Below, piece after piece: positions 23,588 through 44,062 of a DNA stretch of 64,000 nucleotides. How positions within the stretch are numbered: the stretch's first letter is position 1; every line of letters starts with the position of its first letter. The notes below the pieces were generated by a model. That model saw nothing but the letters and a program-made list of their open reading frames with translations, searched no databases and was not told the origin of the DNA. Position numbers and translations under genes: made by a program. This stretch comes from Pedobacter nutrimenti. GTDB lineage: Bacteria > Bacteroidota > Bacteroidia > Sphingobacteriales > Sphingobacteriaceae. The stretch lies in the NCBI RefSeq assembly GCF_003208655.1, contig NZ_QKLU01000007.1:248001-312000 (forward strand), given 5' to 3'.

Positions 23588-23599
23588 AATTGAATACAT

Positions 23600-26230: not shown

Positions 26231-26235
26231 CAAAA

Positions 26236-27609: not shown

Positions 27610-27661
27610 AAAAATAGCTTTGCTCAAAAGTAATAGAAAGTGTTCGATGATGCACATAGAC

Positions 27662-27677
27662 TGTCCGGATATGAACA
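27662..27677. promoter_or_regulatory. Candidate upstream activator site (copy 1)
   Basis: TGTCCGGATATGAACA matches 14 of 16 bases of the second copy at 43221-43236; flanking bases extend it to the imperfect dyad CTGTCC/GAACAG. It ends 64 bp upstream of the -24 GG of the sigma-54 promoter. It is located between the response regulator and the operon, as expected for an enhancer-type site. Confidence 0.6.
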
Positions 27678-27739
27678 GTTTTGGCTTTGTTATTCTTTTA
27701 ATGTATTGATATACAGTGATATAATTATTTTGATTCCTT

Positions 27740-27755
27740 TGGCACAGCCTTGGCT
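27740..27755 (+). promoter_or_regulatory. Sigma-54 promoter (-24/-12)
   Basis: TGGCACAGCCTTGGCT carries the -24 GG (27741-27742) and -12 GC (27753-27754) with exactly ten bases between, close to the TGGCAC-N5-TTGC consensus. The predicted start is near 27766, upstream of the ATG at 27780. A TTG-initiated reading at 27750 would lie before the transcript start. Confidence 0.75.
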
Positions 27756-27779
27756 ATCTGCAGAACAATAAGCCTGAAA

Positions 27780-29030
27780 ATGGAAATGGACAAAATAATA
27801 GAGAAAAAAAGATTTAATAAAAAGACCATATTGATGATGGTCGGCGGACTTGTTTTTTTAGGCCTTGTTGCTTACGGTTACAATTTGTCCCTGAAAAAAG
27901 TGTATAAAGTGGATGCCGATAAAGTTACCATCAGTAAAGTGAAATATGGTGATTTTGAAGATGTGGTCTTGTTGAATGCAAGTGTGGTTCCCCTGACTTC
28001 TGTAATTGTGAGTTCTTCTGAAGGAGGAACAGTTGCGGAAATTTTTACAGAAAACGGTGCCTCGGTTACAAAAGGTACCCCCTTGCTCAGGATTGACAAT
28101 CCAAGGGCCTTATCAAATTATACCAGTAGTGAAACCAGTATTACCGAGCAGATTAACCAGCTGCGCAAAGTAAGACTGGATCTGGAGCAGAACCAGCGGG
28201 TCATGAGCCAGGACATGATGGTCATTGAAAACAGCCTGCGTTCTGCCACCAGAAAATACAGGGCAGATAGCACCCTGTACTCTAAAAAGGTGATTACCAA
28301 AGAAGAATTCAGTGCGTCCAGTCAGGATTATGAATATTATTTAGGCCGCAGGGCCATTTTGAAACAAGCCATCAAGCAGGAAAACCAAAGCAGGCAGATG
28401 CAGCTTAGTCAAATAGATGTGTCGGTTAGAAGAATGAACGAAAGTCTGGAAACCATTCGTAAAAATATAGAGAATATGACCATTAAGGCACCAGTGGCCG
28501 GGAGACTGTCTTCTTACGATCCAGTGATCGGTAAATCTTATAATCCGAATGAGATGCTGGGCAAAATTGACGTGATGCAGGGCTATAAACTGCAAGCTGG
28601 AGTGGATGAATATTATGTAAACAGAGTGAAAGAAGGACAAAAGGCCAGTTGTGAGTTTAATGGCGCAACTTATCAGCTGACGGTACGGAAAGTTATTCCC
28701 GAAGTAACTGCGGGACAATTCCAGGTAGAGTTGGTTTTTGAGGGGAAATCTCCTGAAGATTTAAGAAGAGGTTTATCTTTACAGACCAAGCTGACCTTGT
28801 CGGACAACAGTAAATCTTTATTGTTATCCCAGGGACAATTTTTTCAGAGCACAGGCGGCGCCTGGGTTTTTGTACTCAAAGACGGACAGGCCAAAAAGCG
28901 CAATGTTAAAATTGGGCGGAAAAACTTCCTTTATTATGAAGTCATGGAAGGACTGCAAAAGGATGAAGAAGTGATTACTTCCTCTTACGACCAGTTTAAC
29001 CAGTACGATATTATACAAGTAAATAAATAA
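27780..29030 (+). CDS. Membrane-fusion (HlyD/RND-type) periplasmic adaptor
   Basis: A 416-residue protein with a single N-terminal membrane segment (KKTILMMVGGLVFLGLVAYGYNLSL) and the adaptor layout: lipoyl half-motif (SVTKGTPLLRIDNPRA), long helical hairpin (SETSITEQINQLRKVR through ESLETIRKNIENMTIKAPVAG), and beta-barrel (VKEGQKASCEF). Adaptors link inner-membrane transporters to outer-membrane channels. The following ABC ATPase and permeases make it the MacA-like partner of MacB-type pumps. No outer-membrane TolC gene is in the window. Confidence 0.88.
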   Translation: MEMDKIIEKKRFNKKTILMMVGGLVFLGLVAYGYNLSLKKVYKVDADKVTISKVKYGDFEDVVLLNASVVPLTSVIVSSSEGGTVAEIFTENGASVTKGTPLLRIDNPRALSNYTSSETSITEQINQLRKVRLDLEQNQRVMSQDMMVIENSLRSATRKYRADSTLYSKKVITKEEFSASSQDYEYYLGRRAILKQAIKQENQSRQMQLSQIDVSVRRMNESLETIRKNIENMTIKAPVAGRLSSYDPVIGKSYNPNEMLGKIDVMQGYKLQAGVDEYYVNRVKEGQKASCEFNGATYQLTVRKVIPEVTAGQFQVELVFEGKSPEDLRRGLSLQTKLTLSDNSKSLLLSQGQFFQSTGGAWVFVLKDGQAKKRNVKIGRKNFLYYEVMEGLQKDEEVITSSYDQFNQYDIIQVNK

Positions 29031-29051
29031 ACAATTACCCAATATAAATAA

Positions 29052-29098
29052 AGGCTGGAAGACACTGTATCAGGTGCGTTGAACAGGACTTTCAGCCT
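29052..29098 (+). other. Intercistronic stem-loop between adaptor and ABC ATPase
   Basis: Outer stem: nine pairs (29052-29060 with 29090-29098, one G-U). Inside it CTGT (29065-29068) pairs with ACAG (29083-29086). No T-run follows, so it may adjust mRNA stability or expression ratios rather than terminate. Confidence 0.45.
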
Positions 29099-29126
29099 CA
29101 TTTGGAAAACATATTAAACTAAGGCA

Positions 29127-29825
29127 ATGATCAAAATTGAAAATCTAGAAAAAGTTTATAAAACTGAAGAAATTGAAACTACGGCATTAAACGGCATTAA
29201 CATCCACGTTAAGGAAGGGGAATTTGTTTCTATTATGGGACCCTCTGGTTGTGGCAAGTCTACCTTGCTGAATGTAATGGGCTTGCTGGATAAACCGGAA
29301 AGCGGCAGTTATAAGTTTCAGGAAACAGAACTTTTGAAACTGAACGACCGGGAACGTTCCAATTTCAGAAAAAGGAATATGGGTTTTGTTTTCCAAAATT
29401 TCAACCTGATCGATGAGCTGACGGTTTTTGAAAATATTGAGCTGCCCCTGATCTATAATAAAATTGCCGCAACCGAGCGCAAAAAGTTGGTAAACGAGAT
29501 CATTGAAAGGATGAATATTGTGAACAGAAGCGGGCATTTTCCACAGCAATTATCGGGTGGGCAACAGCAACGTGTGGCCGTAGCCAGGGCACTGGTCACC
29601 AAGCCCAAGCTGGTACTGGCCGATGAGCCTACCGGAAACCTGGACAGTTCACATGGTAACGAAGTGATGGAATTGCTTTGTGAGTTGAATGAACAGGGAA
29701 CAACCATTGTCATGGTGACACACTCTTCTCATGATGCCAGCTTCTCCAACCGGATCATCAATTTGAAAGATGGGCATGTGATCTCGGAAAAAGTAAATAA
29801 AGGACGTACTGAAGAACTGATCTGA
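29127..29825 (+). CDS. ABC transporter ATPase (MacB/LolD type), first unit
   Basis: A 232-residue ATPase: Walker A GPSGCGKST (about residues 36-44), Q-loop FVFQNFNLID, signature LSGGQQQRVAVARAL, Walker B plus D-loop [14 protein letters not shown], and switch His in MVTHS. It should power the permease(s) encoded next (gap of one base). The MacB/LolD group moves peptides, antibiotics or lipoproteins and drives mechanotransmission across the envelope. Confidence 0.95.
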   Translation: MIKIENLEKVYKTEEIETTALNGINIHVKEGEFVSIMGPSGCGKSTLLNVMGLLDKPESGSYKFQETELLKLNDRERSNFRKRNMGFVFQNFNLIDELTVFENIELPLIYNKIAATERKKLVNEIIERMNIVNRSGHFPQQLSGGQQQRVAVARALVTKPKLVLADEPTGNLDSSHGNEVMELLCELNEQGTTIVMVTHSSHDASFSNRIINLKDGHVISEKVNKGRTEELI

Positions 29826-29826
29826 A

Positions 29827-32202
29827 ATGTTTAAACTGAATTTAAGAATTGCTTTACGCAACCTCTGGAAAAACAAGGCCTATACACTGATCAATGTAGG
29901 TGGGCTTTCTATTGGCCTGGCCAGCTGTATGATCTTGTTGCTGTACATTAATTACGAATGGGGTTATGATAAGCAGTTTAAAAATTACAAAGACACCTAT
30001 ATGGTGTACAACAACCAGAAGGCCAACGGGGGTATTTTTAGTGTGAGCGCTACTCCAGGTGTACTGGCTGAAGGAGCGAAGGCCGAAATTGCCGGTGTGC
30101 TACAGGCCACACATATTTCCTGGTCAGCAAGCGAACTGTTGAGTTACAATCAACATAACTTTAAAAAATCAGTGACCTATGCCGATAGCAATTTTCTGAA
30201 AATATTCGATTACAAGGTATTACAGGGCAACGCCGCTGATTTTTTGAAAAACCCCAATTCGGTGGTCTTGACAAAATCCATGGCAACCGCCCTTTTTGGT
30301 AAAGAAGATCCGTTGAATAAAACTGTAAAGCTTGCGCAGACGGAGTATCTAAAAGTAGAGGGAGTAATTGAAGATGCGCCTAAAAACAGCAGTATACAGT
30401 TTGATTATCTGTTGCCCTGGACTCTGTATGAGAAACAGAACTCATGGGTCAAAACTGCCGGATGGGGCAGTAATTTCTGTATGACTTTCCTACTGCTGAA
30501 GGACAACAGTTTTTTCAGTGCAGCCAATACGCAGCTTAAGGGAATGATAAAAAGAGGCGATAAAGACAGTAATGGCGAGGCTTTTTTACATCCTTTATCC
30601 AAATGGCACTTATACAGTACCTTTGAAAACGGCAAATCTGTAGGAGGTAAGATCCAACAGCTGCAGATTTTTTTATTGCTGGCATTTTGTATCCTGTTAA
30701 TTGCCTGTGTCAATTTCATGAACCTTTCCACGGCCAGGTCTGAAAAAAGATCAAGGGAAGTTGGGGTCCGAAAAGCCATTGGTTCTTCCAGGAAAAGCCT
30801 GGTCAGTCAGTTTTTAATGGAATCTGTATTACTGGCACTGATCAGTATGGTTTTTGCCTTTATGCTGATCGAGATTGCACTCCCTTATTTTAATGGACTA
30901 TTGGGCATATCCCTGGAAATTGCCTATATGGAATGGAAATTTTGGGCTGTTTTAATTTTATTGACCTTATTTACAGGCTTGATTGCCGGCAGTTATCCCG
31001 CTTTTTATTTGTCTTCTTTTGATCCGATAAAAGTACTGAAGGGATTTACCTTGCCTGGAAATTCTTCCCTGTCTATCCGTAAGTTTCTGGTGGTGTCTCA
31101 ATTTGTTTTTGCCGTCTGTCTGATCATTTGCATCACCGTCATTTATCAGCAGTTGAATTACATCAAAAATAAACCTGTGGGCTATAATAAAAATAACCTG
31201 ATTGAAATTCCGGTTCAGGGCGATTTGAAAATGGCTTCCAAATTTCAGGTTCTTAAAGATAATTTATTGAAATCCGGTTATGCCAGTGGGGTCAGTTATT
31301 CCTCCCTGTCTATGACGGGCTGGGGCAATAACGGTTATGGGGTTTCCTGGCCTGGAAAAAATGAAAAAGAAAAAGTCCTGGTCAGTTACCGGAATACAGG
31401 GTATGACCTGATCAAAACCACAGGGATGGAATTGATTGCTGGCCGGGATTTCTCCGAAAAATTTGCCGATTCTGCCAGTGTGCTGATCAACGAGACCTTG
31501 GCCAAGACGATGGGAAACCGGCAACCTGTCGGATCGGTGATCAAATGGGACGGACGGCCTGTTACAATTATTGGCCTGATTAAAGATTATATATTTGAAT
31601 CCCCTTATCAAAAGAGCAATGCATTGTTGATTTCCCATACGCCCGATATGGGATCTGACGGATCTGCCGTTATTCTGATTAAAATACCTGCAGAACAAAA
31701 CCTGAGCAAAGCGGTTGATTTTATTGATGATCAGCTTAAAATCATAAATCCTCAATATCCGGCCGACCGGCATTTTGTTGACGAAAACTTTGAGCAGAAG
31801 TTTCGGAATGAGAAACTGCTGGGTACCTTATCCAATTGGTTTGGAGGTTTTGCGGTTTTTATTTCCTGTTTGGGTTTACTGGGGCTTGCTTTGTTTATGG
31901 CCGAGCAGCGTAAAAAGGAAATCAGCATTCGTAAGGTATTGGGTGCGAGCTCTGTGAATATTCTTCTGCTTTTGAATAAAGACTTTATTAAACTGGTATT
32001 CATTGCCAATCTGATTGCTTTTCCATTGGCCTATGTCATTGTGAGCAGGTGGCTTTCCAATTATGATTTCAGGATTTCTATCTCAGTTTTTCCTTTTGCT
32101 ATTGCTGCGGTTTTATCTGTATTGATTGCATTGTTTACTGTAAGCCTTCAATCTTTTAAAGTGAGCAAAGCAAACCCTGTTGATGCTTTAAAATATGAAT
32201 GA
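29827..32202 (+). CDS. FtsX/MacB-type ABC permease, paralog 1
   Basis: A 791-residue membrane protein. It begins MFKLNLRIALRNLWKNKAYTLINVGGL and contains two halves, each with a periplasmic MacB-like core and an FtsX membrane domain (IACVNFMNLSTARSEKRSREVGVRKAIG; then EQRKKEISIRKVLGASSVNIL). It ends ANPVDALKYE. Downstream genes 32219, 34599 and 37002 are close paralogs. Closest to the second copy across the whole length. Partner of the ATPase 29127 by position. Confidence 0.93.
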   Translation: MFKLNLRIALRNLWKNKAYTLINVGGLSIGLASCMILLLYINYEWGYDKQFKNYKDTYMVYNNQKANGGIFSVSATPGVLAEGAKAEIAGVLQATHISWSASELLSYNQHNFKKSVTYADSNFLKIFDYKVLQGNAADFLKNPNSVVLTKSMATALFGKEDPLNKTVKLAQTEYLKVEGVIEDAPKNSSIQFDYLLPWTLYEKQNSWVKTAGWGSNFCMTFLLLKDNSFFSAANTQLKGMIKRGDKDSNGEAFLHPLSKWHLYSTFENGKSVGGKIQQLQIFLLLAFCILLIACVNFMNLSTARSEKRSREVGVRKAIGSSRKSLVSQFLMESVLLALISMVFAFMLIEIALPYFNGLLGISLEIAYMEWKFWAVLILLTLFTGLIAGSYPAFYLSSFDPIKVLKGFTLPGNSSLSIRKFLVVSQFVFAVCLIICITVIYQQLNYIKNKPVGYNKNNLIEIPVQGDLKMASKFQVLKDNLLKSGYASGVSYSSLSMTGWGNNGYGVSWPGKNEKEKVLVSYRNTGYDLIKTTGMELIAGRDFSEKFADSASVLINETLAKTMGNRQPVGSVIKWDGRPVTIIGLIKDYIFESPYQKSNALLISHTPDMGSDGSAVILIKIPAEQNLSKAVDFIDDQLKIINPQYPADRHFVDENFEQKFRNEKLLGTLSNWFGGFAVFISCLGLLGLALFMAEQRKKEISIRKVLGASSVNILLLLNKDFIKLVFIANLIAFPLAYVIVSRWLSNYDFRISISVFPFAIAAVLSVLIALFTVSLQSFKVSKANPVDALKYE

Positions 32203-32218
32203 TTAATTCTGAAAAGAT

Positions 32219-34582
32219 ATGTTTAAACTGAATTTGAAAATTGCTTTAAGGAGTTTATGGAGACATAAGGGTTTTACCCTTATTAATGTGGGTGGTTTGG
32301 CGATTGGTCTGGCCAGCTGTATGATTTTGCTCTTGTATGTGACTTATGAATGGAGTTACGATAAGCAGGTTAGTAATGCAGATAAAACTTATATCGTTTA
32401 TCAGAATTCCAAAAATGACGGGAACATCATGACCTGGTTCTGGACCACCAATACAATTGCGGGGGAAAGCAGGGAGAAAATACCTGGTGTGGCCAATTCT
32501 TCACATTTTACTTATCCGGATGATGAATTACTAAGTTATGAAAATAAAAACTTCAAAAAAGCTGGAGTTTATGCGGATGAATATTTTCTAAAAATAATGG
32601 ATTACAAAGTGTTAAGGGGGAATCCGGAAAAAGCACTAAAAGGACAAAATTCCATTGTACTGACCCAAACAATGGCCAAAATGCTGTTTGGAAATGCAGA
32701 TCCGATCAATAAAACGGTGAAATTACAGAACAGCGAAGTTCTTAAAGTAGAGGCTGTGATTGAGGATGTTTCAAAGAACAGCACCATCAGGTTTGATTAT
32801 CTTTTGCCCTGGACTTTAATGTTAAAATTCAGACCCTGGAATAAAGAGGCCAACTGGGGCAACAACTTTTGTCTCAACCTGGTACAGTTAAAAGACAATC
32901 GGTTTTTTGAACAGGTCAACCAGCAGATGAAAGGTATTTATGTCCGGAACGCGCCAAATTCCTCTTCTGAGGCATTTTTGCATCCTTTATCCAAATGGCA
33001 TTTGTACGATAAATTTGAACAGGGGAAATTAGCCGGGGGAAAAATAGACCAGGTGAAAATATTTCTTATACTGGCTTTTTGTATTTTACTGATTGCCTGT
33101 ATCAATTTTATGAATTTGGCTACAGCCCGGTCAGAAAAACGGGCCAGGGAAGTTGGGGTCCGAAAAGCAATTGGTTCTTCCCGTAAGGCCCTGGTCAGAC
33201 AGTTTCTGATGGAATCTTTTCTGCTTGCTTTTATGGGAATGATCATCGCTTTTGTACTCATAGAGCTCAGTTTGCCCTATTTTAACGGATTACTGAATAT
33301 TGAATTAAAAATTAATTATAGCGACTGGAGGTTTTGGACCGGACTTCTGGGCCTCACTTTGATCACAGGAGCCATTGCAGGTAGCTATCCGGCATTTTAT
33401 CTTTCCTCCTTTGAACCGGTTAAAGTTTTAAAAGGTTTTGGGCTGCAAATGAATGCCTCAGTGTCTGTAAGGAAAGTGCTGGTGGTTTTCCAGTTTGTTT
33501 TTGCAGTCTGTCTGATCATTTGTACGACAGTGATTTATCAGCAATTAAATTATGTAAAAAATAAACCAATTGGTTATAACCGTGAAGGCCTGGTTGAAAT
33601 ACCCATACAAGGAAATTTGCGGAATAAGGAAAAATTGGCTTTGCTGAAGGAAAGATTGTTGAATTCGGGCAGTGCGACTGCACTTAGCTATTTCAGTACC
33701 TCCATGGGCCAGACTGGAAACAATACTTATGATTTTAGCTGGCCTGGTAAAAATCCTAAAAGTAATATATTAATAGATTTTCGTGCAGCGGGTCAGGATT
33801 TTGCAAAAACAGTGGATGCAAAAATGCTTTCGGGCCGCGATTTTTCCGCTGCTTATACAGATACGGCCAACGCGGTTCTGAATGAGGCTGCTGTAAAAGT
33901 AATGGGATTGAAACAGCCGGTCGGGACGGTGATCAAATGGGATGGCAGACCTTACACGGTAGTGGGTGTGATCCAGGATCTGGTCATGGGTTCGCCCTAT
34001 CAACAGGCTGCACCTATGGTGATGTATTATTTTATGAATGACATGAATTATATTTCTGTCAGGCTAAATCCTGCTCAGAATGTGAGTGCTTCAGTGGCGA
34101 AAATCGATGAAATTGTCAAAGAAATTAACCCCGATTTTCCGGTGGACAGAAAATTTGTATCTGATCAGTTTGAGCAAAAGTTTCAAAATGAACAATTACT
34201 CGGTACCATGTCCAACTGGTTTGGGGGCTTCGCTATATTTATTTCCTGTCTGGGCTTACTTGGTCTGGCCTTGTTCATGGCAGAACAGCGTAAAAAAGAG
34301 ATCAGCATTCGTAAAGTGCTTGGTGCCAGTACCGGAAATATACTCACGCTGTTGAACAGGGATTTTGTAAAACTGGTCTTGATTGCAAACCTGATCGCTT
34401 TTCCTTTGGCTTATGTGGTTGTTAACCACTGGCTTTCGGCTTATAGTTTCCGGATTTCGATCTCGGTTTTACCATTTTTAATGGCGACGATGATCTCTCT
34501 TTTAATTGCAGTGCTCACGGTGAGCGTACAATCGGTTAAGGTGGCAAAATCCAATGCGGTGGATGCCTTGAAATATGAATGA
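32219..34582 (+). CDS. FtsX/MacB-type ABC permease, paralog 2
   Basis: A 787-residue copy with the same architecture as paralog 1: start MFKLNLKIALRSLWRHKGFTLI, middle FtsX segment IACINFMNLATARSEKRAREVGVRKAIG, final NAVDALKYE. The 16-base gap before it (TTAATTCTGAAAAGAT) is nearly the same as before paralog 3, which points to tandem duplication including the spacer. It most resembles paralog 1. Confidence 0.93.
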   Translation: MFKLNLKIALRSLWRHKGFTLINVGGLAIGLASCMILLLYVTYEWSYDKQVSNADKTYIVYQNSKNDGNIMTWFWTTNTIAGESREKIPGVANSSHFTYPDDELLSYENKNFKKAGVYADEYFLKIMDYKVLRGNPEKALKGQNSIVLTQTMAKMLFGNADPINKTVKLQNSEVLKVEAVIEDVSKNSTIRFDYLLPWTLMLKFRPWNKEANWGNNFCLNLVQLKDNRFFEQVNQQMKGIYVRNAPNSSSEAFLHPLSKWHLYDKFEQGKLAGGKIDQVKIFLILAFCILLIACINFMNLATARSEKRAREVGVRKAIGSSRKALVRQFLMESFLLAFMGMIIAFVLIELSLPYFNGLLNIELKINYSDWRFWTGLLGLTLITGAIAGSYPAFYLSSFEPVKVLKGFGLQMNASVSVRKVLVVFQFVFAVCLIICTTVIYQQLNYVKNKPIGYNREGLVEIPIQGNLRNKEKLALLKERLLNSGSATALSYFSTSMGQTGNNTYDFSWPGKNPKSNILIDFRAAGQDFAKTVDAKMLSGRDFSAAYTDTANAVLNEAAVKVMGLKQPVGTVIKWDGRPYTVVGVIQDLVMGSPYQQAAPMVMYYFMNDMNYISVRLNPAQNVSASVAKIDEIVKEINPDFPVDRKFVSDQFEQKFQNEQLLGTMSNWFGGFAIFISCLGLLGLALFMAEQRKKEISIRKVLGASTGNILTLLNRDFVKLVLIANLIAFPLAYVVVNHWLSAYSFRISISVLPFLMATMISLLIAVLTVSVQSVKVAKSNAVDALKYE

Positions 34583-34598
34583 TTAATTCTAAAAAGAT

Positions 34599-36989
34599 AT
34601 GTTTAAACTGAATTTAAAAATCGCCTTAAGAAATTTGTGGAAACACAAGAGTTATACCTTTATAAATGTGGCCGGGTTGACCATTGGTATGGCCAGTTGT
34701 ATTCTCATTTTTATTTTTATCCGGTATCATTTGAGTTTTGATGAGCAGTTCGCAAATAAAGACAGAATTTTCAGGATGGTCACGTATTGGAAATATACGG
34801 AAGGTGAAGAGTTTCAAAGAGGTACTCCAAGACCATTGCCTGCTGCGGTACGGAATGATTTTTCAGAAGTAGAACAAGCTGGGGCTATTCAGGGGAGTGG
34901 AGGCATTCTTAAAATCAGAGACGAATCGGGTAAGGAAAAAATCAAAACCGCAGAAGATGTATATTATGTAGAACCTCAGTTTTTTAAAATTTTTGACTAC
35001 AAGTGGTTACAAGGTGATCCTCAACAAGCACTTTCTAACCCAAATACGGTGGCCTTATCCGAAAAAATGGCAACCCGGTTTTTTGGGGACTGGCGAAAAG
35101 CAGTGGGCCAGACCATTAATTTTCAAAACAAGACCGATCTTAAGGTAACGGGTGTTTTTGAAAATGTTCCGGAGAACAGCAGCATTCCATTAAAAGTGGT
35201 CATTTCTTATGCTGGATATACGAATCCAAATCTGAGGAAGTGGGGAAGTGTTTCTTCCAGCTCGCAATGTTATGTCTTGTTGAAAGCAGGAACCGAGCTG
35301 GTGCAAATGCAGGCACAGCTTAGGGCTTTTGCAAAAAAATACAATTCTGATAAAGAAGTTGGGGAAAGGAAATACTTTTTACAACCCTTAAGGGAAATAC
35401 ATCACGATGAACGTTATGGCAGTGGCAGGGGAACCATGCCCATGAAACAAATCTGGGGTCTTGGAATCATTGGTTTATTTCTGCTCATTACTGCTTGTAT
35501 TAACTTTATCAACTTAGCTACAGCCCAGGCAATTGGCCGTTCCAAGGAGGTGGGGGTAAGAAAAGTAATGGGTAGTCTCAGGAGCCAGCTGATGGTTCAG
35601 TTTTTGACCGAAACTTTGACCATTACCGTATTTGCCGTTTTACTGGCTTGCGCGGTTACTGAACTTGCCTTACCCGGTATGGCATCTTTATTCAGAGGGA
35701 ACGTGACCTTTAGCCTGTTTGCGCATCCGGTTATTTTTGTTTTTCTGTTTGGTCTGGTCCTGCTGGTGAGTTTTCTGGCCGGCTTTTACCCAGCCTTGGT
35801 CATTTCAGGATTTAATCCTGCCCTGGCCATAAAAAATAAGATCAGTAGTGCCAGTTCCGGAGGTGTTGGTTTGAGGAAGGCATTGGTTATTGTCCAGTTT
35901 TCGATTACAGTAATCCTGATCATTGCCACCCTGGTGGTATTGAAGCAGATGAATTACATGCGGGAGAAATCTTTAGGCTTTAATCCCAGTGCGGTTGCCC
36001 TGGTGGATGTGCCTAGTGACAGCTTAAGCCTGGAAAGGTATGCGGGTCTGAAAGAAAGGGTGCTGAAATTACCCGGAGTGCTTCATGCCAGTTTCTGCAG
36101 TGCTTCTCCTTCTTCAGACAGTAATAATATGGATAATTTCAGTTTTGAAACTTCAAAAGAGCGGGATTTCCAGGTCAACACCAAACAGGCTGATGAAGAT
36201 TATTTTAAAACTTTCGGCCTGAAAATAATCGCTGGAAAGCCCTTGTCGAAAAGTGATACCCTAAAAGAGTATGTCATTAATGAAACCATGCTTAGAAAAT
36301 TAAATATTCCTGACCCTCAGCAGGCCATTGGGAAATATTTGAACATTAGTGGAGATCAGAAAGCACAGGTGGTCGGGGTGGTGAAAGATTTTAACAACCT
36401 GAACTTAAGAGAAGCGATTTCACCAATAGCTTTATCTTCTTCCAAAATAAGAAGCACCACACTGGCCGTAAAACTGCAGAGCGGTGCTTTGATGTCGACC
36501 ATGCCGGCTATTGAAAAGACATGGAATGATGTGTTTCCCGAGCATGTTTATGGTGCCGTTTTTATGGAAGATGAAATTGGCCGGTACTATGAAGGTGAGC
36601 AAGTGATGGGGACGCTTTTTAAAGTTTTTGCAGGCACGATTATTTTCATTTCCTTTATTGGTCTGTTTGGCCTGATCTCTTTTATTGCCGCTCAGCGGAC
36701 AAGGGAAGTGGCCATCAGAAAGGTCCTTGGAGCGAGTAATCTGGAATTGGTCCATATGCTCAACGGCTCTTTTTTGGCCATGGTTTTTGTAGCCAATCTG
36801 GTCGCTTGTCCCTTGGCTTATATTTTTGCTTCCAAATGGTTGTCTGGTTATACTTACCGGATTGAACTGAGCATCTGGCCCTTTTTGATTGCCATGCTGG
36901 TCTCGGTGGTCATTACGCTGATCACGGTCAGTGTCCGTTCTTATCAAACGGCTTTAAAGAACCCGGTAGATGCACTGAAATATGAATAA
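34599..36989 (+). CDS. FtsX/MacB-type ABC permease, paralog 3
   Basis: A 796-residue permease with MFKLNLKIALRNLWKHKSYTFI at the start and NPVDALKYE at the end. Middle (ITACINFINLATAQAIGRSKEVGVRKVMG) and C-terminal (AAQRTREVAIRKVLGASNLELV) FtsX motifs are conserved, but the periplasmic domain (from about residue 50) is clearly different from paralogs 1 and 2. This divergence is where substrate or partner specificity would be expected. Second of two paralog groups. Confidence 0.93.
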   Translation: MFKLNLKIALRNLWKHKSYTFINVAGLTIGMASCILIFIFIRYHLSFDEQFANKDRIFRMVTYWKYTEGEEFQRGTPRPLPAAVRNDFSEVEQAGAIQGSGGILKIRDESGKEKIKTAEDVYYVEPQFFKIFDYKWLQGDPQQALSNPNTVALSEKMATRFFGDWRKAVGQTINFQNKTDLKVTGVFENVPENSSIPLKVVISYAGYTNPNLRKWGSVSSSSQCYVLLKAGTELVQMQAQLRAFAKKYNSDKEVGERKYFLQPLREIHHDERYGSGRGTMPMKQIWGLGIIGLFLLITACINFINLATAQAIGRSKEVGVRKVMGSLRSQLMVQFLTETLTITVFAVLLACAVTELALPGMASLFRGNVTFSLFAHPVIFVFLFGLVLLVSFLAGFYPALVISGFNPALAIKNKISSASSGGVGLRKALVIVQFSITVILIIATLVVLKQMNYMREKSLGFNPSAVALVDVPSDSLSLERYAGLKERVLKLPGVLHASFCSASPSSDSNNMDNFSFETSKERDFQVNTKQADEDYFKTFGLKIIAGKPLSKSDTLKEYVINETMLRKLNIPDPQQAIGKYLNISGDQKAQVVGVVKDFNNLNLREAISPIALSSSKIRSTTLAVKLQSGALMSTMPAIEKTWNDVFPEHVYGAVFMEDEIGRYYEGEQVMGTLFKVFAGTIIFISFIGLFGLISFIAAQRTREVAIRKVLGASNLELVHMLNGSFLAMVFVANLVACPLAYIFASKWLSGYTYRIELSIWPFLIAMLVSVVITLITVSVRSYQTALKNPVDALKYE

Positions 36990-37001
36990 TACGTTTTTAA
37001 T

Positions 37002-39392
37002 ATGTTTAGATTAAACTTAAAAATAGCACTTAGGAACCTTTGGATCAACAAGGGATTTTCCCTGATCAGTATCGCCGGCCTGGCCATTGCACTGGCCATC
37101 TTTATCCTGTGTATGCTGTATGCAAATTACGAACGGAGTTATGATGCCTGGAATCCGGGTAAAGACAGGCTTTACCGGGTCAATTATCGTTCTGAAATAG
37201 AAAACGTTGCCCTAAGCCCCGGGAATATGGCCACCAGCAGCAAGGAAAATATAGCAGCGGTGGAAGCTTCTACCAGAATACAGGACTACTGGAAAGGAAG
37301 TTTACTGTTGAAAACAAATCAGAAAGATCACTATGTGGATAAGGTATTGCTTGCAGATAGTAATTTTCTAAAGGTATTTGAATATCCTCTGCTGTATGGG
37401 AATGCACAAAAAGCACTGAATCATCCGCAATCTCTTATTTTGAGTAAAGAGCTGAGTGAAAATCTTTTTGGGAAAGGGGTGAACCCCGTTGGGGAGAAGG
37501 TTATTCTGGATAACAATACGGCTTATGCAATAGATGGTGTGATCGATGTAGCCAGATATCCTTCGCATTTTCAGTTTAATATGATCTGGAGGTTTAAAAA
37601 GAGTACATCTACAGATTTTTACGGCAATAATTATTATACCTACGTAAAACTGTATCCAAATTCACCGGTCCTTGAAACCCAGGTGCTGTTGAACCAGAAC
37701 CGGACAACATTGATGAATGCCGAGTTATTAAAAATGCCTGATGAGGATAAGGCCGTTTTTCGCGAATTTATTGACAAGAACAAACTTTATTTACAGCCGG
37801 TAAAAGACATCCACCTGACTAAAAGTAATGTCGAATATGAGTTTTCGGGAAATGGGATTGGAACATATTTGTTTTTGATGCTGCTCGTTGCTTTGCTAGT
37901 CCTTGTCATTGCAGCAGTAAATTTTACCAATTTATCGATTACCATTGCAATCAAAAGGGCAAAAGAAGCAGGGGTGAGAAAAGTTCTTGGGGCTTTTCGC
38001 CTGCAAATTGCCATTCAGTTTATATTGGAAATTACCTTGCAGTGTTGTTTCAGCGTATTGCTGGCCATTGTACTGATGGAATTGTTTTTACCTTCTTTTA
38101 ATACTTTGGCTGACAGTCATATACAGCTGGAGCAGTTTCGTGATTATGCGCAGCTTTTAATAGAGGTTTTTATTTTGCTGGTTGTACTGGTTTTGCTTTC
38201 GGGTTTGTATCCGGCATTACTGATCAGTAATGTGATGCCTGTTAAGGTACTTAAAGGAAACTTTAGCAACAGTGACAAAGGGAGCCGGATCCGCAACGGA
38301 CTGGTGGTTCTTCAGTTTTTTATTGCTGTCCTTTTTATATTGGGGATATGGGTCATAGGCCATCAGCTTAAGTTTATGCAGCAGAAAGACCTGGGGTATA
38401 AACCACAACAGGTTCTTGCCATTCGTTTAATGAAGGAAAACGGAGAGGCGCATTATCGTCAGGTTAAAAATGTACTTCAAAATATTGAAGGGGTACAGCA
38501 AATTTCCAGGGCTGATCATATTCCTGGTGAGGATATGGGTGGAAACAGCTATAGTGTTGAGGGGAAAACCTATAGTGCAAATTTTATTACCATTGACGGG
38601 AATTATACCCAGACAATGGGGATGAAGATGATTGGTGGCAGATCTTTCAGTTCATCCGTTCCAAAAGACACCATGGGATCGGTGCTGCTGACTGAAACAG
38701 CTGCAAAAACCTTTGGGTTAAAGGACCCGGTAGGAAAAATGATTAAATTTCATGGAATGCCACTTGAAGTCATTGGACTGGTGAAAGATTTTAATCATTA
38801 TAGTCCCGAAAAAGCATTTCAGCCTATCGTTTTTCAATATGTGAGAGGGAATCCGCTTCAATATGTGTTGGTACAGGTGGAAGCAGGCCAGTCTTCTAAG
38901 GTGCTTTCTGAGATAGAAACTGCATGGCATAAGCTGGAACCAGATTTTCCGATCCGTTATACTTTCCTGGACCGGAATTTTGAAACACTGCTGCATAAGC
39001 AAGCCCAGCTCGGCAGGATTATCGGGATTTTGTCTACAGTGACCATAATGCTGGCTTTAATGGGAATATTTGCGCTGGCTGCACTTTCTACACAACGCCG
39101 ACGTAAAGAAATCAGTATCCGAAAAGTTTTAGGGGCTTCTATGTTTGATATTCTGCGCCTGCTCAATACCGGTTTTATTAAGCTGGTGCTTTTGGCAAAC
39201 CTGCTGGCCTGGCCGGTCGCTTATTTTCTTTTGAAAAACTGGTTGGATGAATTTGCTTTTCGGATAGAGGTTTCGCTGTTTCCATTTTTACTGGCAGCGG
39301 GGCTTACCTCCTGTCTGACTGTACTGGTGGTCAGCATGCAGTCTTATCGAACGGCCAGTTCAAATCCGGCTGATGCTTTAAAGTATGAATAA
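37002..39392 (+). CDS. FtsX/MacB-type ABC permease, paralog 4
   Basis: A 796-residue permease beginning MFRLNLKIALRNLWINKGFSLISIAGL and ending NPADALKYE. Motifs FTNLSITIAIKRAKEAGVRKVLGAFR and TQRRRKEISIRKVLGASMFDIL mark the two FtsX halves. Only 12 bp from paralog 3, the last of the run. The intergenic region to the LytS gene (39393-39509) has a degenerate minus-7 box, so this may be the operon end; no clear terminator is seen. Confidence 0.92.
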   Translation: MFRLNLKIALRNLWINKGFSLISIAGLAIALAIFILCMLYANYERSYDAWNPGKDRLYRVNYRSEIENVALSPGNMATSSKENIAAVEASTRIQDYWKGSLLLKTNQKDHYVDKVLLADSNFLKVFEYPLLYGNAQKALNHPQSLILSKELSENLFGKGVNPVGEKVILDNNTAYAIDGVIDVARYPSHFQFNMIWRFKKSTSTDFYGNNYYTYVKLYPNSPVLETQVLLNQNRTTLMNAELLKMPDEDKAVFREFIDKNKLYLQPVKDIHLTKSNVEYEFSGNGIGTYLFLMLLVALLVLVIAAVNFTNLSITIAIKRAKEAGVRKVLGAFRLQIAIQFILEITLQCCFSVLLAIVLMELFLPSFNTLADSHIQLEQFRDYAQLLIEVFILLVVLVLLSGLYPALLISNVMPVKVLKGNFSNSDKGSRIRNGLVVLQFFIAVLFILGIWVIGHQLKFMQQKDLGYKPQQVLAIRLMKENGEAHYRQVKNVLQNIEGVQQISRADHIPGEDMGGNSYSVEGKTYSANFITIDGNYTQTMGMKMIGGRSFSSSVPKDTMGSVLLTETAAKTFGLKDPVGKMIKFHGMPLEVIGLVKDFNHYSPEKAFQPIVFQYVRGNPLQYVLVQVEAGQSSKVLSEIETAWHKLEPDFPIRYTFLDRNFETLLHKQAQLGRIIGILSTVTIMLALMGIFALAALSTQRRRKEISIRKVLGASMFDILRLLNTGFIKLVLLANLLAWPVAYFLLKNWLDEFAFRIEVSLFPFLLAAGLTSCLTVLVVSMQSYRTASSNPADALKYE

Positions 39393-39509
39393 TAGGAAGT
39401 CAGGAGCCTAAAATGACTGTTATTGATCTATATTTTAGTGCATTTGGTCTAAAATTATAATTTGTAAAACCAAGAGTGCCTATCTTTATCTGATAGGCCA
39501 CTTTAAATA

Positions 39510-40583
39510 ATGTCAGTACAAGCACCGGTAGTTCCTGATCATGACCACTTTCTACGTTTTATTGTAGATGATAAATACAGTCTTTACCGCAGAATTGCAG
39601 GTGTCGCCTTATTGTCCCTGATTCTGACCGGGGGGAATACCAAACAAGAGTTTTCGGACCTGACCTTTTTTTGTTTAAAAATGGGAGGGTTTTTGATCAC
39701 TTTGTTGTTGTTGTACATTAACATTTATGTACTGATTCCTAAATACCTGTTCAGAAAAAAATATATACACTATGTGATTTGGGTGGCTGTAGTTATTGTT
39801 TTGTCTTTTTTAGTTTTTGCAGGATTAAAAGAATGGTTGCCTTCCCTGCGGCTTAAACCAGGACCTGTGGTTAAAAATGAATATCTGGAGGATTTTATAT
39901 CCGTTGTCATTTTACTGAGTATTTTGTGTGCGGCAACCATGGCCATAAGATTGTTTCAGCGCTGGGTGAAGGATGGTTACAGGTTGACACAGCTGGAAAA
40001 CATTCGGATGCAAACCGAACTGGACCTTTTAAAAAGTCAGGTGAACCCGCATTTTCTTTTTAATATGTTGAACAATAGTCAGGTATTGATTCAGACAAAT
40101 CCGCAAAAGGCTTCAGAAATACTGATCAAGTTATCGGATTTGCTCCGTTATCAGCTTTATGACAGCAGCCGGGAAAAAGTATTGTTAAGTGCCGATATTC
40201 GCTTTATAGCACAACTTTTAACCCTGGAAAAGGTCCGGCGTGATTATTTTGACTTTAATATAGAGCAGGAGGGGACCAGTCGTCAGCTTCTTATAGCCCC
40301 GCTTTTGTTTGTGCCTTTTGTGGAAAATGCAGTGAAACATAACATAGAATCTGTTAAAGGGGCCTTTGTGGAATTGAGTTTTAAACTCCATGAGGATGTC
40401 CTGATTTTTAAATGCCGTAATTCCAAGGCTGCCGGGGCAATAGAAATGGATCCAGACCAAATGGGCGGATTGGGACTTCCAAATGTTCAGCGGCGATTGG
40501 AATTGCTGTTCCCGGATAAACATCAATTAAGCATAAAGGATCAGAATGGAGTTTATGAGGTTCATTTAATTTTAACTTTATGA
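39510..40583 (+). CDS. LytS-type sensor histidine kinase
   Basis: A 357-residue protein of the His_kinase (PF06580) family. Four N-terminal membrane segments, then the short kinase part with the phospho-acceptor H181 in QVNPHFLFNMLNNSQ, and a Bergerat-like ATPase (LLFVPFVENAVKHNIES, GGLGLPNVQRRLELLF). Four bases of overlap (ATGA) with the LytTR gene show coupling. Part of a two-component pair common in Bacteroidetes, often sited near transporter operons. Confidence 0.93.
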   Translation: MSVQAPVVPDHDHFLRFIVDDKYSLYRRIAGVALLSLILTGGNTKQEFSDLTFFCLKMGGFLITLLLLYINIYVLIPKYLFRKKYIHYVIWVAVVIVLSFLVFAGLKEWLPSLRLKPGPVVKNEYLEDFISVVILLSILCAATMAIRLFQRWVKDGYRLTQLENIRMQTELDLLKSQVNPHFLFNMLNNSQVLIQTNPQKASEILIKLSDLLRYQLYDSSREKVLLSADIRFIAQLLTLEKVRRDYFDFNIEQEGTSRQLLIAPLLFVPFVENAVKHNIESVKGAFVELSFKLHEDVLIFKCRNSKAAGAIEMDPDQMGGLGLPNVQRRLELLFPDKHQLSIKDQNGVYEVHLILTL

Positions 40584-41299
40584 AGTGTTTGATTGTTGAC
40601 GATGAACCCCTTGCAAGGGAAAACATTATGATACACCTGCAGCAATATCCGGAAATGGAACTTTGCGGTTGTTTTAATAATGCGACGGCTGCGGCTGGAT
40701 ACATGTTGCTGAATCATGTTGACCTGGTTTTTCTGGACATCCGGATGCCCGGAATTAATGGAATTGAATTCGCCAGATCTTTGGGACGTAAAACAATGGT
40801 TATTTTTGTTACGGCTTTTGCTGAATACGCTTTGGATAGTTATGAGGTAGATGCAGTGGATTATCTGGTAAAGCCCCTGCATACGGAACGCTTTCAAAAG
40901 GCTATAGCCAAAGCAATGGTTTACAAGGACCTTTTGGATCATCAGGGGGAATCCAGGATAGAATTTAGTGCACAGGATTTTATTTTTGTCAGGGCAGAAA
41001 GGCAGTTTTTCAAAGTGAATTTTAAAGACCTCATTTTTATTGAAGGCCTCAAAGATTATGTGATCCTGCACCTTCCGGATCAAAAATTACTAACGGCCAT
41101 GAACCTGAAAGCCATACATCAGAAACTACCTTCGGCTCTTTTTATCAGGGTGAGCAAATCTTATATCGTAAATGTAAGTCAGATCAGGGTTTTTGATAAC
41201 AATACCATTTATATAGATCAGAATGAAATTCCTATTGGAAATAATTACAGAGATTTCTTTTTTGAAAATTTTGTAAACAAGAGCTTTAATGAAAAATGA
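40580..41299 (+). CDS. LytTR-family response regulator
   Basis: A 239-residue regulator: receiver with D53 in LVFLDIRMPG, conserved T/K region (FVTAFAEYALDSYEVDAVDYLVKPL), and a C-terminal LytTR DNA-binding domain (FIFVRAERQFFKVNFKDLIFIEGLKDYVILHL to FIRVSKSYIVNVSQI). Its partner is the overlapping LytS kinase. LytTR proteins bind pairs of direct repeats about 21 bp apart, exactly what lies just downstream at 41307-41338. Confidence 0.95.
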   Translation: MKCLIVDDEPLARENIMIHLQQYPEMELCGCFNNATAAAGYMLLNHVDLVFLDIRMPGINGIEFARSLGRKTMVIFVTAFAEYALDSYEVDAVDYLVKPLHTERFQKAIAKAMVYKDLLDHQGESRIEFSAQDFIFVRAERQFFKVNFKDLIFIEGLKDYVILHLPDQKLLTAMNLKAIHQKLPSALFIRVSKSYIVNVSQIRVFDNNTIYIDQNEIPIGNNYRDFFFENFVNKSFNEK

Positions 41300-41306
41300 T
41301 CTGTTT

Positions 41307-41338
41307 TTTCATCTAAAATACTTCCACTTTCGTCTAAA
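41307..41338 (+). promoter_or_regulatory. Paired direct repeats, probable LytTR operator
   Basis: TTTCATCTAAA (41307-41317) and TTTCGTCTAAA (41328-41338) differ at one base and are offset by exactly 21 bp, two helical turns. The second ends about 42 bp upstream of the predicted start from the minus-7 box at 41366-41373, the usual place for an activator. A related single site (TTTGGTCTAAA, one mismatch) lies upstream of lytS at 39433-39443. Confidence 0.65.
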
Positions 41339-41365
41339 TTAGAACATGGACTTAGCATAGCCAGA

Positions 41366-41373
41366 TACTTTTG
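41366..41373 (+). promoter_or_regulatory. Minus-7 promoter box of the phospholipase-like gene
   Basis: TACTTTTG fits TAnnTTTG exactly; the ATG follows at 41399. Confidence 0.55.
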
Positions 41374-41398
41374 GGATAATACCTAAAGAAATACGACT

Positions 41399-43186
41399 AT
41401 GCAAATCAAGCTGAAACCAGCGCTATATTTATCCCTTTCCCTTATTTTGTTGTTGAGTAGCTTGTGTCTGGAAATGCTGCTGGTTTTTAAAACGGAAAGC
41501 ATTTTAAAATGGCTAAGGCTCTGGGGAGTCGGATTACTGTGTCTGTTGATTCCCGAAAGTGGGTTTTCCTTTGTTTATGGAGAACATAAACGGATTGGGG
41601 ATCTTGCTTTTTTTAGAGCAATTGATAAGTTAAAATCAGAAGGAAGTTCAAAGCTGCTGTTGGATTATCTTCACCAGGTAATCCGGTTGGACAAAGACAA
41701 CTATAGTTTTCCTGCTTTGTCTGGAGGAACATACCCAGTTACTTATGGCATGCTTAACGGGCTTTCAGGTGATCACCAGGAAAATCCCATCGTATTGGAA
41801 GAACAATTAAAAGATCCGCAGTCCAAACTTCAAAAAATAATTGCCCTGCATCAGTCCTATCTGGATAAAGGAATGAAAGCTGCGCCAGATGCGGAATTGG
41901 TTGGTCTTGATCTTCATTATGCACTGGCGGCAGCCGTTAATCTTTCTCATTTTTACGCGTATGGCAAGACCTTTCAGGAGCAGCTCCATGATTTTGATCT
42001 TAGCCAGCTTAAAAAGGCCAGAGACCGGGCTTACCTCTCAGATCTGGTCAAGAAGCTTTCCCGCAGCAACGCGATTAGAATGTATGTAAGTATGCACCTG
42101 CTGGCCATAGATCTGGCAGAGCAAAGCGCTAAAATGACAGTTGGACAAAACAAAGAGGGGGTTGCCCTGCTCCAGTCGGCATTATTTTTAAATGGGTTTG
42201 CTGACCATTTTCTGGAAGATGCCTTTTCCGCGGGACATCTGGTGGTGAACCGGACCATGCTGGAATCTTTTACCAATAATAAGGCCCTTCACGATTTTTA
42301 TTCCGAACACGGAACAGTCGTGATGAACAGGAAAGCAGAGATTTGGAGGGCCTATGGAGATGGAAAATTTGAGGAACAGACAACGGCAGGACAACGGATC
42401 ATTTTAGCGGTTGAAGCTTCATTGGAAGACTTGTTTGTCGCTTTTAACCAAGCGGCCAAAAAAGAAGATGAAGTGAAATTTTTTGATAGAATCCCGCTGG
42501 ATAAATCTAGGCAGGCGATCTATCTTCTGGATCATATTTCCTGTTTAAACCTGGTACCCATTCCCTATAATTCAAAACTGGAAAGCCTGATGCCGAAAGA
42601 AACAACCTTGACCGCGGACATGCGAAAAGCAAACCAATTGCTTTATTACCGGAATTTCATCCGGAGCAGGGTCGGTAATTCATTTATGGTTGCCCGTTTA
42701 AACTCGGCTGCAGGAGATCCTTACGCAGGTTTTGAATTTAGGGTCAATGCCTTAAATTTTAGCAAACGCTATAAATACAATGAACAAGGGGGGAAGAAAG
42801 GGATGGTGGATGATTGGTTTGGTTATACCCTGGCCTATAATTTTTTAAGGAGCAGGGCTGAGGCACCGCATCAGAATACTTATCAGATCAGTGGGGGCCT
42901 GAGGGCTAATTTAGATTATTGGTTTGCAGAGAAAAGATTTTTGGGTATGTACAGCTATATGGAAACAGGACTGAGATTTGAAAAGGGAAAGGCTGAACCG
43001 GTTTTTGCCCCTTCTATAGGTATACATCTGGGTTCGCTTTTTAATGTGAATTATTACAATATGCCTGGCTGGTTGCGTTTACCAGCGATGTACCTGTTGC
43101 CACTGAAAATCAGGTATGCACCGGTTTTTTCGTTTAAACATGCCCCAAGGCATTTTGCGGCGGCGGAACTGGACCTTTTCTTTTAA
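41399..43186 (+). CDS. Zinc-phospholipase-C-like protein with a probable outer-membrane barrel tail
   Basis: A 595-residue protein with a hydrophobic leader; a shorter start at the second Met cluster (MLLVFKTESILK, residue 24) would give a simpler signal peptide. The core has a motif HFLEDAFSAGH (H270, D274, H280) with the spacing of zinc ligands H118, D122 and H128 in Bacillus cereus phospholipase C; LDLHYALAAAVNLSH upstream and HDFYSEHG downstream may be further ligands. After about residue 420 it turns into amphipathic strands ending FAAAELDLFF, as in outer-membrane barrels. A hydrolase on the cell surface is a reasonable guess. The upstream LytTR site suggests LytR control. Confidence 0.65.
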   Translation: MQIKLKPALYLSLSLILLLSSLCLEMLLVFKTESILKWLRLWGVGLLCLLIPESGFSFVYGEHKRIGDLAFFRAIDKLKSEGSSKLLLDYLHQVIRLDKDNYSFPALSGGTYPVTYGMLNGLSGDHQENPIVLEEQLKDPQSKLQKIIALHQSYLDKGMKAAPDAELVGLDLHYALAAAVNLSHFYAYGKTFQEQLHDFDLSQLKKARDRAYLSDLVKKLSRSNAIRMYVSMHLLAIDLAEQSAKMTVGQNKEGVALLQSALFLNGFADHFLEDAFSAGHLVVNRTMLESFTNNKALHDFYSEHGTVVMNRKAEIWRAYGDGKFEEQTTAGQRIILAVEASLEDLFVAFNQAAKKEDEVKFFDRIPLDKSRQAIYLLDHISCLNLVPIPYNSKLESLMPKETTLTADMRKANQLLYYRNFIRSRVGNSFMVARLNSAAGDPYAGFEFRVNALNFSKRYKYNEQGGKKGMVDDWFGYTLAYNFLRSRAEAPHQNTYQISGGLRANLDYWFAEKRFLGMYSYMETGLRFEKGKAEPVFAPSIGIHLGSLFNVNYYNMPGWLRLPAMYLLPLKIRYAPVFSFKHAPRHFAAAELDLFF

Positions 43187-43220
43187 AACTTTTCAGGATC
43201 GTACGGCAGCGGACAACCAT

Positions 43221-43236
43221 TGTCCGGAATTGAACA
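43221..43236. promoter_or_regulatory. Candidate upstream activator site (copy 2)
   Basis: TGTCCGGAATTGAACA matches copy 1 (27662-27677) at 14 of 16 positions, ending 53 bp upstream of the -24 GG (43289-43290), compared with 64 bp for copy 1. The 11-bp difference equals one helical turn. Overlapping it is a perfect inverted repeat GGACAA-CCA-TTGTCC (43211-43225), not seen at copy 1. Confidence 0.55.
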
Positions 43237-43287
43237 TGTCGGGGTTAATGTGTAGCTTTATTGTGGAATAGGGTTGCTTTTTGAATT

Positions 43288-43303
43288 TGGCATAAGGCTT
43301 GGG
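43288..43303 (+). promoter_or_regulatory. Sigma-54-like promoter of the second ABC unit
   Basis: TGGCATAAGGCTTGGG has the -24 GG and the TTG of the -12 element at the correct spacing, but the invariant GC is GG. It sits 40 bp upstream of the ATP-binding gene. The imperfect -12 lowers confidence; the shared activator motif upstream raises it. Confidence 0.45.
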
Positions 43304-43342: not shown

Positions 43343-44032
43343 ATGATAGAACTAAAAAATATAGAAAAATACTACGCAAATAAAGGAGTAAAGAGTTATA
43401 TCCTGCGTCATGTGAGCACAGAGATCAAAGCAGGCGAATTCGTCAGTATTATGGGGCCTTCCGGTGCAGGTAAGTCCACTTTACTGAATATCCTGGGTAT
43501 GCTCGAAGAACCTACTTATGGTGAATACCAGTTTATGGGAGAGGACATCACTTCCCTGAACGAGCGTAAAAGGATAGATTTATATCGTAATCATATCGGT
43601 TTTGTGTTTCAAGCTTATCATCTTATTGATGAGATGACTGTTGCTGAAAATATTGAAGCGCCTTTGTTGTATAAAAAAATTGGAGGATCTGAACGTAAAA
43701 GCAGGGTGGCAGATGTTTTGGACAGGTTTAACATGGTTGCCAAAAAAGATCTTTTTCCAAACCAGCTTTCCGGTGGCCAGCAACAGCTGGTTGGAATTGC
43801 AAGGGCACTGGTTGCCCAACCCAGCATTATTCTTGCAGATGAACCTACCGGAAACCTGCAATCGGCCCAGGCCCTTCAGATCATGGAACTTTTTAAGAAA
43901 CTGAATGAGGAAGAGGGGATTACGATTGTGCAGGTTACTCATTCAGAGGTGAATGCGGGCTATGGTTCCCGGATTTTGCATTTACTTGATGGGGTGATTA
44001 AAGAAGACCTGAAAGTCAACCAGACGGTGTAA
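43343..44032 (+). CDS. ABC transporter ATPase (MacB/LolD type), second unit
   Basis: A 229-residue ATPase: Walker [11 protein letters not shown]-loop [10 protein letters not shown], signature [15 protein letters not shown] and Walker [13 protein letters not shown]. The D-loop Asp of the usual NLDS is Gln (NLQS), and the Arg expected after the signature QQQ is Leu. It is encoded 30 bp upstream of the matching permease and has no adaptor of its own. Probably works with permease 44063. Confidence 0.92.
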
Positions 44033-44062
44033 GTTTTTTATATGCTGTAAAGGATTTACTTG

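Follow-up and report, generated by a model that had tools for sequence, protein, structure and literature searches.

Tandem activator-type sites and sigma-54-type promoters connect two ABC transport units with a predicted regulon of long MacB/FtsX permeases in Pedobacter

We analysed a stretch of 64,000 nucleotides of the Pedobacter nutrimenti genome (G000; 5.72 Mb in 21 contigs), namely positions 248001-312000 of contig 7 (henceforth the window, meaning the whole stretch), and in it two ABC transport units and the predicted sigma-54-type promoters in front of them. The first unit (operon 1) consists of genes for a periplasmic adaptor, an ATPase (ATPase 1) and four long permeases (X1a to X1d), and lies divergent from genes for a sensor histidine kinase and an NtrC-type response regulator; the second (operon 2) consists of genes for another ATPase (ATPase 2) and a further long permease (X2), and a cassette with LytTR-type two-component genes lies between the two (Table 1). 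X1a and X2 each contain two MacB_PCD and two FtsX stretches according to Pfam, and their hydropathy peaks fit a duplicated permease. A sequence-only reading of this DNA had proposed that both units share a promoter architecture and a 16-bp activator motif. The two 16-mers it described are indeed identical at 14 of 16 bases, the GG pairs of the -24 elements do lie 64 and 53 nt past them, the promoters have the forms GG-N10-GC (first) and GG-N10-GG (second), and Pfam searches agreed with the regulator and kinase beside the first unit and with the ABC/FtsX nature of the transport genes.

We found that both 16-mers are the promoter-proximal copy of a 16-bp palindrome, TGTYCRNNNNYGRACA, which occurs in tandem at an interval of about 21 bp and is followed by a sigma-54-type promoter; we refer to each copy as an upstream activating sequence (UAS) and to the two proximal copies as site 1 and site 2. 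By itself, the motif does not stand out in the window (4 occurrences at three mismatches against 1.86 expected, with at least 4 in 14 of 100 shuffles), so the evidence must come from architecture and conservation. Two simpler criteria were rejected: the exact 16-mer with up to two mismatches, which mixed likely and chance sites genome-wide, and the palindrome TGTYCN6GRACA alone, found at 29 sites in the genome against 23 in a control. Likely and chance sites were separated only by a joint score for two sites 20-23 bp apart plus a promoter at an allowed distance, the spacing classes being taken from the set of 115 sites described below. Only sites 1 and 2 stand above background in the window, with joint scores of 32 and 31; the next place scores 25, the maximum over six shuffled copies and one reversed copy is also 25, and the background is at most 25 across 2831 overlapping window pieces. 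Furthermore, TGTCCGGAWWTGAACA with zero mismatches occurs at only these two places in the genome.

Table 1. Features of the two transport units, their promoters and the neighbouring regulatory genes (window coordinates)
Feature	Position	Strand	Basis or remark
Sensor histidine kinase	24872..26233	-	Two hydrophobic segments near N-terminus, HATPase_c
NtrC-type response regulator	26236..27657	-	Receiver, Sigma54_activat, Fis-type helix-turn-helix (HTH_8), GAFTDA loop
Distal UAS of pair 1, TGTTCGATGATGCACA	27641..27656	+	11/12 motif positions; 21 bp upstream of proximal UAS 1
Proximal UAS 1 (site 1), TGTCCGGATATGAACA	27662..27677	+	First site of the sequence-only reading; motif search, conserved in relatives
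Sigma-54-type promoter 1, TGGCACAGCCTTGGC (GG-N10-GC)	27740..27754	+	78 nt from UAS start; kept in relatives
Periplasmic adaptor (HlyD/MFP), first gene of operon 1	27780..29030	+	Pfam, NCBIfam
ABC ATPase 1	29127..29825	+	Pfam, NCBIfam
Long MacB_PCD/FtsX permease X1a	29827..32202	+	Pfam
Long permease X1b	32219..34582	+	62% identical to X1a
Long permease X1c	34599..36989	+	PF12704 search
Long permease X1d	37002..39392	+	PF12704 search
Cassette	39510..43186	+	Between operon 1 and ATPase 2; not seen at this place in 11 relatives
LytS-type kinase	39510..40583	+	In cassette
LytTR response regulator	40580..41299	+	In cassette
595-aa protein without Pfam match	41399..43186	+	In cassette
Distal UAS of pair 2, CGTACGGCAGCGGACA	43200..43215	+	10/12 motif positions; 21 bp upstream of proximal UAS 2
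Proximal UAS 2 (site 2), TGTCCGGAATTGAACA	43221..43236	+	Second site of the sequence-only reading; motif search
Sigma-54-type promoter 2, TGGCATAAGGCTTGG (GG-N10-GG)	43288..43302	+	67 nt from UAS start
ABC ATPase 2	43343..44032	+	Pfam; 51% identical to ATPase 1
Long permease X2	44060..46465	+	Pfam

Site 1 and its promoter are widely conserved. Among the 80 closest regulator loci (78 from Pedobacter and two from Sphingobacteriales or Sphingobacteriaceae metagenome-assembled genomes), they were found with at most one mismatch in 66 (53 exact, 13 with one mismatch), with the TGG of the promoter 78-80 nt on, and joint scoring of pair plus promoter recovered 13 of the remaining 14, giving 79 of 80. 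The sole miss, L112, covers just 219 nt upstream, and is also the only one of the 80 loci in which the adaptor gene was not found. We then searched 145 genus genomes with a strict pattern (UAS-N45-68-TGGCAYNNNNNTKG, i.e., an allowed UAS-promoter distance of 61-84 nt) and found it in 108, with its reversed control matching in a single genome. In 119 of these genomes we found an orthologue of the regulator (E below 1e-160); site and promoter occur in 108 of those 119 and in none of the 26 without it. The 26 include G155, G156, G157 and G160, as well as G056 and G057, which have only a weaker relative of the regulator (E about 1e-101) and no strict-pattern match.

Spacing was compared over 115 sites, comprising 5 from the window genome and 110 foreign sites among the matches listed (30 taken as loci and 80 fetched, first in list order and later picked from later genomes). 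The distance from UAS start to TGG was 64-70 nt in 36 sites and 77-80 nt in 79, with no spacing outside these two classes within the allowed 61-84 nt. The classes differ by about one helical turn, as do the window sites (67 and 78 nt); the sequence-only reading had put forward such a turn from an 11-bp difference between two promoters, and the idea holds genus-wide. Grouping the 106 sites with an open reading frame (ORF) by first gene at 50% identity (the nine sites without one being excluded) yielded 25 clusters; the median spacing was short in 13 and long in 12, and two FtsX clusters contained both classes. The -12 element had the form GG-N10-GC or GT in 72 of the 79 long-spacing sites and was more variable in the 36 short-spacing sites, where GG at -13/-12, the form at site 2, was the commonest (11/36). 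A second UAS copy (at least 9 of 12 motif positions) lay 20-23 bp upstream in 107 of 114 sites, one of the 115 having too little upstream DNA, whereas eleven equally wide control windows gave 0-4.

A PF12704 search divides the permease genes of the window genome into 13 long ones (789-875 aa, measured as open frames) and 8 short ones (396-444 aa), and all 13 long permeases lie behind such promoters: four in operon 1, one in operon 2, and eight directly. The eight directly controlled genes are scattered elsewhere on the chromosome with joint scores of 28-32 (two, on contig 3, have one mismatch in the proximal site), and within the few kilobases fetched around them we found no neighbour resembling ATPase 1 or 2. 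None of the eight short permeases has such a promoter (scores 21-23). Two more promoters of this kind in the window genome precede genes for an S41 peptidase (C4:703558) and a protein with a beta-lactamase-family domain (C4:626263-626278). Further places scoring 26 or more were not counted as part of the regulon, namely L007, L081, L082 and L089 (single, 26), opposite-strand readings of counted palindromes at L027 and L082 (29), and L087 (30). Across the 115 sites, the first gene was an adaptor orthologue in 48, an FtsX/MacB permease in 29, an adaptor paralogue in three, an ATPase in one and another gene in 25, with no ORF in nine. At one place in the window genome (G000:C1:1016708-1017043, L079) two divergent long permease genes share an intergenic region with several palindromes, one pair per promoter; it has no strict-pattern site and was left out of the 115, its two promoters showing only under laxer scoring.

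The motif, its pairing and spacing, the conservation of site 1, the co-occurrence with the regulator and the genome-wide gene content strongly support a predicted sigma-54/NtrC-type regulon that contains both transport units, as the sequence-only reading had suggested, albeit one much wider than two units. We consider it very probable that a single NtrC-type switch acts here through tandem sites and sigma-54 promoters on the long permeases. Specifically, the neighbouring membrane kinase would presumably phosphorylate the regulator, two dimers of which would bind the tandem palindromes from the same side of the helix (the copies lying about 21 bp, or two turns, apart) and activate sigma-54 RNA polymerase at the -24/-12 promoter from one of two in-phase distances. 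The regulon would then comprise the adaptor-ATPase-permease operon beside the regulator and the ATPase-permease unit at 43343-46465 (each presumably co-transcribed), the eight permease genes elsewhere, next to which no ATPase gene was detected, and at least two hydrolase genes, and would thus take in the full Pfam-found set of long duplicated MacB/FtsX permeases. The protein equipment fits: the regulator scores 214 bits against PF00158 and 45 bits against HTH_8, and the genome has one gene with a Sigma54_DBD domain (rpoN; E 1.8e-55). The true start of the regulator is probably the ATG at 27609 (residue 17), because most relatives align from about residue 13-17.

Several observations weigh against this reading. 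The co-occurrence of pattern and regulator is an association and not a count of independent events, because the genomes share ancestry; a looser pattern, applied to a smaller sample, had a single match in one genome that lacks the regulator (G015). Of 300 genomes sampled from the order, just 19 from outside the genus matched the strict pattern, although regulators of about 50% identity are common there. The search pattern itself dictated the UAS core and, in the promoter, the letters TGGCAY and T-K-G, leaving only the last promoter base free. At 34 of the 115 sites no transporter gene, or none that is visible, follows. The window genome has six strong Sigma54_activat proteins besides the window regulator, seven in all, one of them a paralogue (C6:307066) that is 39-40% identical to it and has the recognition helix TRNALYRRLEKY in place of TRAALYRRIEKF. 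The regulator also has a GAFTDA loop, as do all 80 of its orthologues, in departure from GAFTGA. The latter is described as invariant in a passage of PMC12316311; GAFTDA is listed among variants that would keep activity in a passage of PMC4641369, and a passage of PMC10714721 leaves open whether GAFTDA lowers interaction. Finally, the sequence-only reading had named absence of the motif from orthologous promoters as evidence against itself, and here the two sites part ways: site 1 is kept as described above, whereas 28 of the 29 foreign X2 loci lack a site above background, the exception being L314.

We examined the history of site 2. X2 was found at E 1e-150 or better in 60 of the 145 genus genomes, at best 57% identical, and 30 X2 loci (our own included) were compared from 65 matches listed. 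In 11 relatives (G067, G059, G077, G153, G047, G101, G014, G120, G092, G102 and G134) the adaptor, ATPase 1, several permeases and ATPase 2 lie on one strand without the LytTR cassette, and in most of them ATPase 2 is followed by X2 or another permease; two other stretches were uninformative, G054 lying on the wrong side and G140 ending with its contig. Because ATPase 2 is contiguous with operon 1 in these relatives, the two operons are not independent, which refines the picture of two units in the sequence-only reading. Internal tandem promoters occur in four of the 11 (two in G067 and one each in G059, G101 and G014), and a site directly before ATPase 2 is absent in ten and present in G014 alone. 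G014 is the closest relative (regulator 88% and ATPase 2 95% identical), with the site at a spacing of 68 nt. This site, together with the contiguity of the operon, partly explains the absence of site 2 at X2 orthologues.

Site 2 may therefore be an inherited internal promoter, or it may have arrived, possibly as a copy, with the LytTR cassette; we regard the second origin as possible but less likely than not. Inheritance is favoured by the presence of a site at this place in G014 without the cassette, and by the promoter spacers of G014 and the window, which are more alike than 1994 of 2000 shuffles (score 6.5). However, the spacer of L283, which precedes an unrelated small gene, is closer still to that of site 2 (score 13), which weakens the claim of homology between the two promoters. 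Elsewhere in the window genome (G000:C3:190287-194551, L373) a LytTR kinase/regulator pair stands directly before a long permease gene (C3:192217) with its own tandem site, in the same order as at site 2, and this too speaks for arrival with the cassette. On either origin, site 2 is predicted to put the separated ATPase 2-X2 unit into the regulon, i.e., it would retain there the piece split from operon 1 by the cassette.

A different possibility is that site 2 has little effect and that transcription of operon 2 comes mostly from the LytTR cassette, whose two-component genes lie directly upstream, or from another promoter. In favour of this, the -12 element of promoter 2 is GG, its distal UAS is weaker, and a site is lacking at most orthologous loci. 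Yet site 2 scores within the range of the eight directly controlled long permeases, its -12 form is the commonest in its spacing class, and G014 has a tandem site and promoter at the equivalent place, so we consider a negligible role unlikely. Slightly less likely still, in our assessment, is that motif and regulon are real but that the paralogous regulator at C6:307066 binds some or all of the distant sites. Its recognition helix is similar to that of the window regulator, and it is clustered with an adaptor, an ATPase and short permeases. Against this, those short permeases have no such site, and none of the 26 genomes without a regulator of the window type has the strict pattern, G056 and G057 among them. 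Three things speak for the window regulator as the activator: its adjacency, its co-occurrence with the sites and its recognition region, LTRAALYRRIEKF, which is invariant over the 80 orthologues. Lastly, that the two 16-bp matches are a coincidence, as the modest counts for the motif alone might suggest, is very improbable given its conservation, pairing, spacing and co-occurrence. The cluster of the paralogue (G000:C6:301001-316000, L371) also contains a kinase and a LytTR pair, and joint scoring found no site of this kind before its short permeases.

Regulons of the NtrC family (bacterial enhancer-binding proteins) typically have paired enhancer sites upstream of -24/-12 promoters, and the predicted system resembles them in its receiver-AAA+-Fis regulator, its paired dyad sites in helical phase and its promoter class. 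It differs in that it holds a MacB/FtsX permease family instead of nitrogen genes, and in its GAFTDA loop; the regulator is not NtrC proper (TIGR01818; 305 bits against an equivalog cut-off of 558.6). The general idea of sigma-54 control of such permeases is already in print: PMC12316311 (2025) predicts it for COG0577/FtsX-like permeases in Bacteroidia, i.e., for the same promoter class and permease superfamily, and claims the first evidence of the link. That prediction is made by COG over whole classes; the main text does not contain 'UAS', 'upstream activ' or 'Pedobacter', and its passages on these permeases name no activator for them. We found no open-licence publication describing the activator, the tandem site and its motif, the spacing rule or the coverage of all long permeases of one genome, and no open-licence paper pairing Pedobacter with sigma-54.

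The transport genes themselves resemble several known exporters. The darobactin exporter DarBCD likewise has a separate adaptor, ATPase and long permease, and in NCBIfam DarC is the best match of the adaptor and DarD of the ATPases, with DarB second for X1a and X2. Identity with DarBCD was rejected, as all scores fall below the curated cut-offs (adaptor 229/450, ATPase 1 291/375, X1a 126/700 bits), and the present system differs in having several permeases and an adjacent sigma-54 two-component system. The ADOP duplicated permeases (TIGR03434) match the approximately 800-aa duplicated permeases over their full length, but X1a (278.6 bits) and X2 (243.7 bits) remain below the subfamily cut-off of 622.3, and eight copies here have no detected ATPase neighbour. 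MacAB-TolC shares the MacB_PCD and FtsX domains and the HlyD-type adaptor, and MacB is the best PDB sequence match of X1a; identity with MacB was ruled out, since the ATPase here is a separate ABC_tran gene and the permease is duplicated. No TolC-type gene was found among the operon genes scanned.

From these genes we infer a possible role in export or envelope stress, and the MacB, DarBCD and COG0577 relatives make export of, or resistance to, membrane-active compounds a natural guess; the genus is described as multi-drug resistant in a passage of PMC7254926. We further propose, as a speculative possibility, a modular exporter in which one adaptor-ATPase engine would serve a varying set of exchangeable long permeases, including the eight that have no ATPase gene beside them, and a single NtrC-type two-component system would turn on the entire set. 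Being co-regulated would then supply the orphans with their ATPase, and additional internal tandem promoters, as found in some relatives, would let broken-off pieces of the long operon stay in the regulon. For a sigma-54 system in Bacteroidota, the analysis proposes which protein is the activator, the tandem site to which it binds, the two distances at which the promoter may lie and the genes that belong to the system across the genus, together with a possible explanation for how orphan MacB/FtsX permeases obtain an ATPase. If it is true, deletion of a single regulator should silence every long permease in the genus Pedobacter.

Some of the remaining sites lead into other genes. At nine foreign sites (L229, L241, L243, L249, L258, L262, L265, L268 and L272) the promoter, at a spacing of 77-80 nt, leads into similar DNA without a nearby long ORF; four of the nine have an ORF of 467-497 aa that begins about 690 nt on. 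Such promoters could serve a long leader, a small RNA or antisense transcription, and the uncounted place L087 (C8:312266-312281) in the window genome resembles this arrangement. At L220, L224, L248 and L276 a site at a spacing of 77 nt precedes a 396-aa protein, which we take to resemble ROK-family regulators (the first 120 residues of the one tested had no Pfam match), and at L207, L211, L226, L236, L256 and L264 proteins of about 200 aa follow sites at a spacing of 78-80 nt (again with no Pfam match in the first 120 residues of the one tested). On the far side of the kinase, the window contains glycogen genes (22181-24871; starch synthase, GlgC) that adjoin it, and many of the 80 relatives likewise have such genes close to the kinase.

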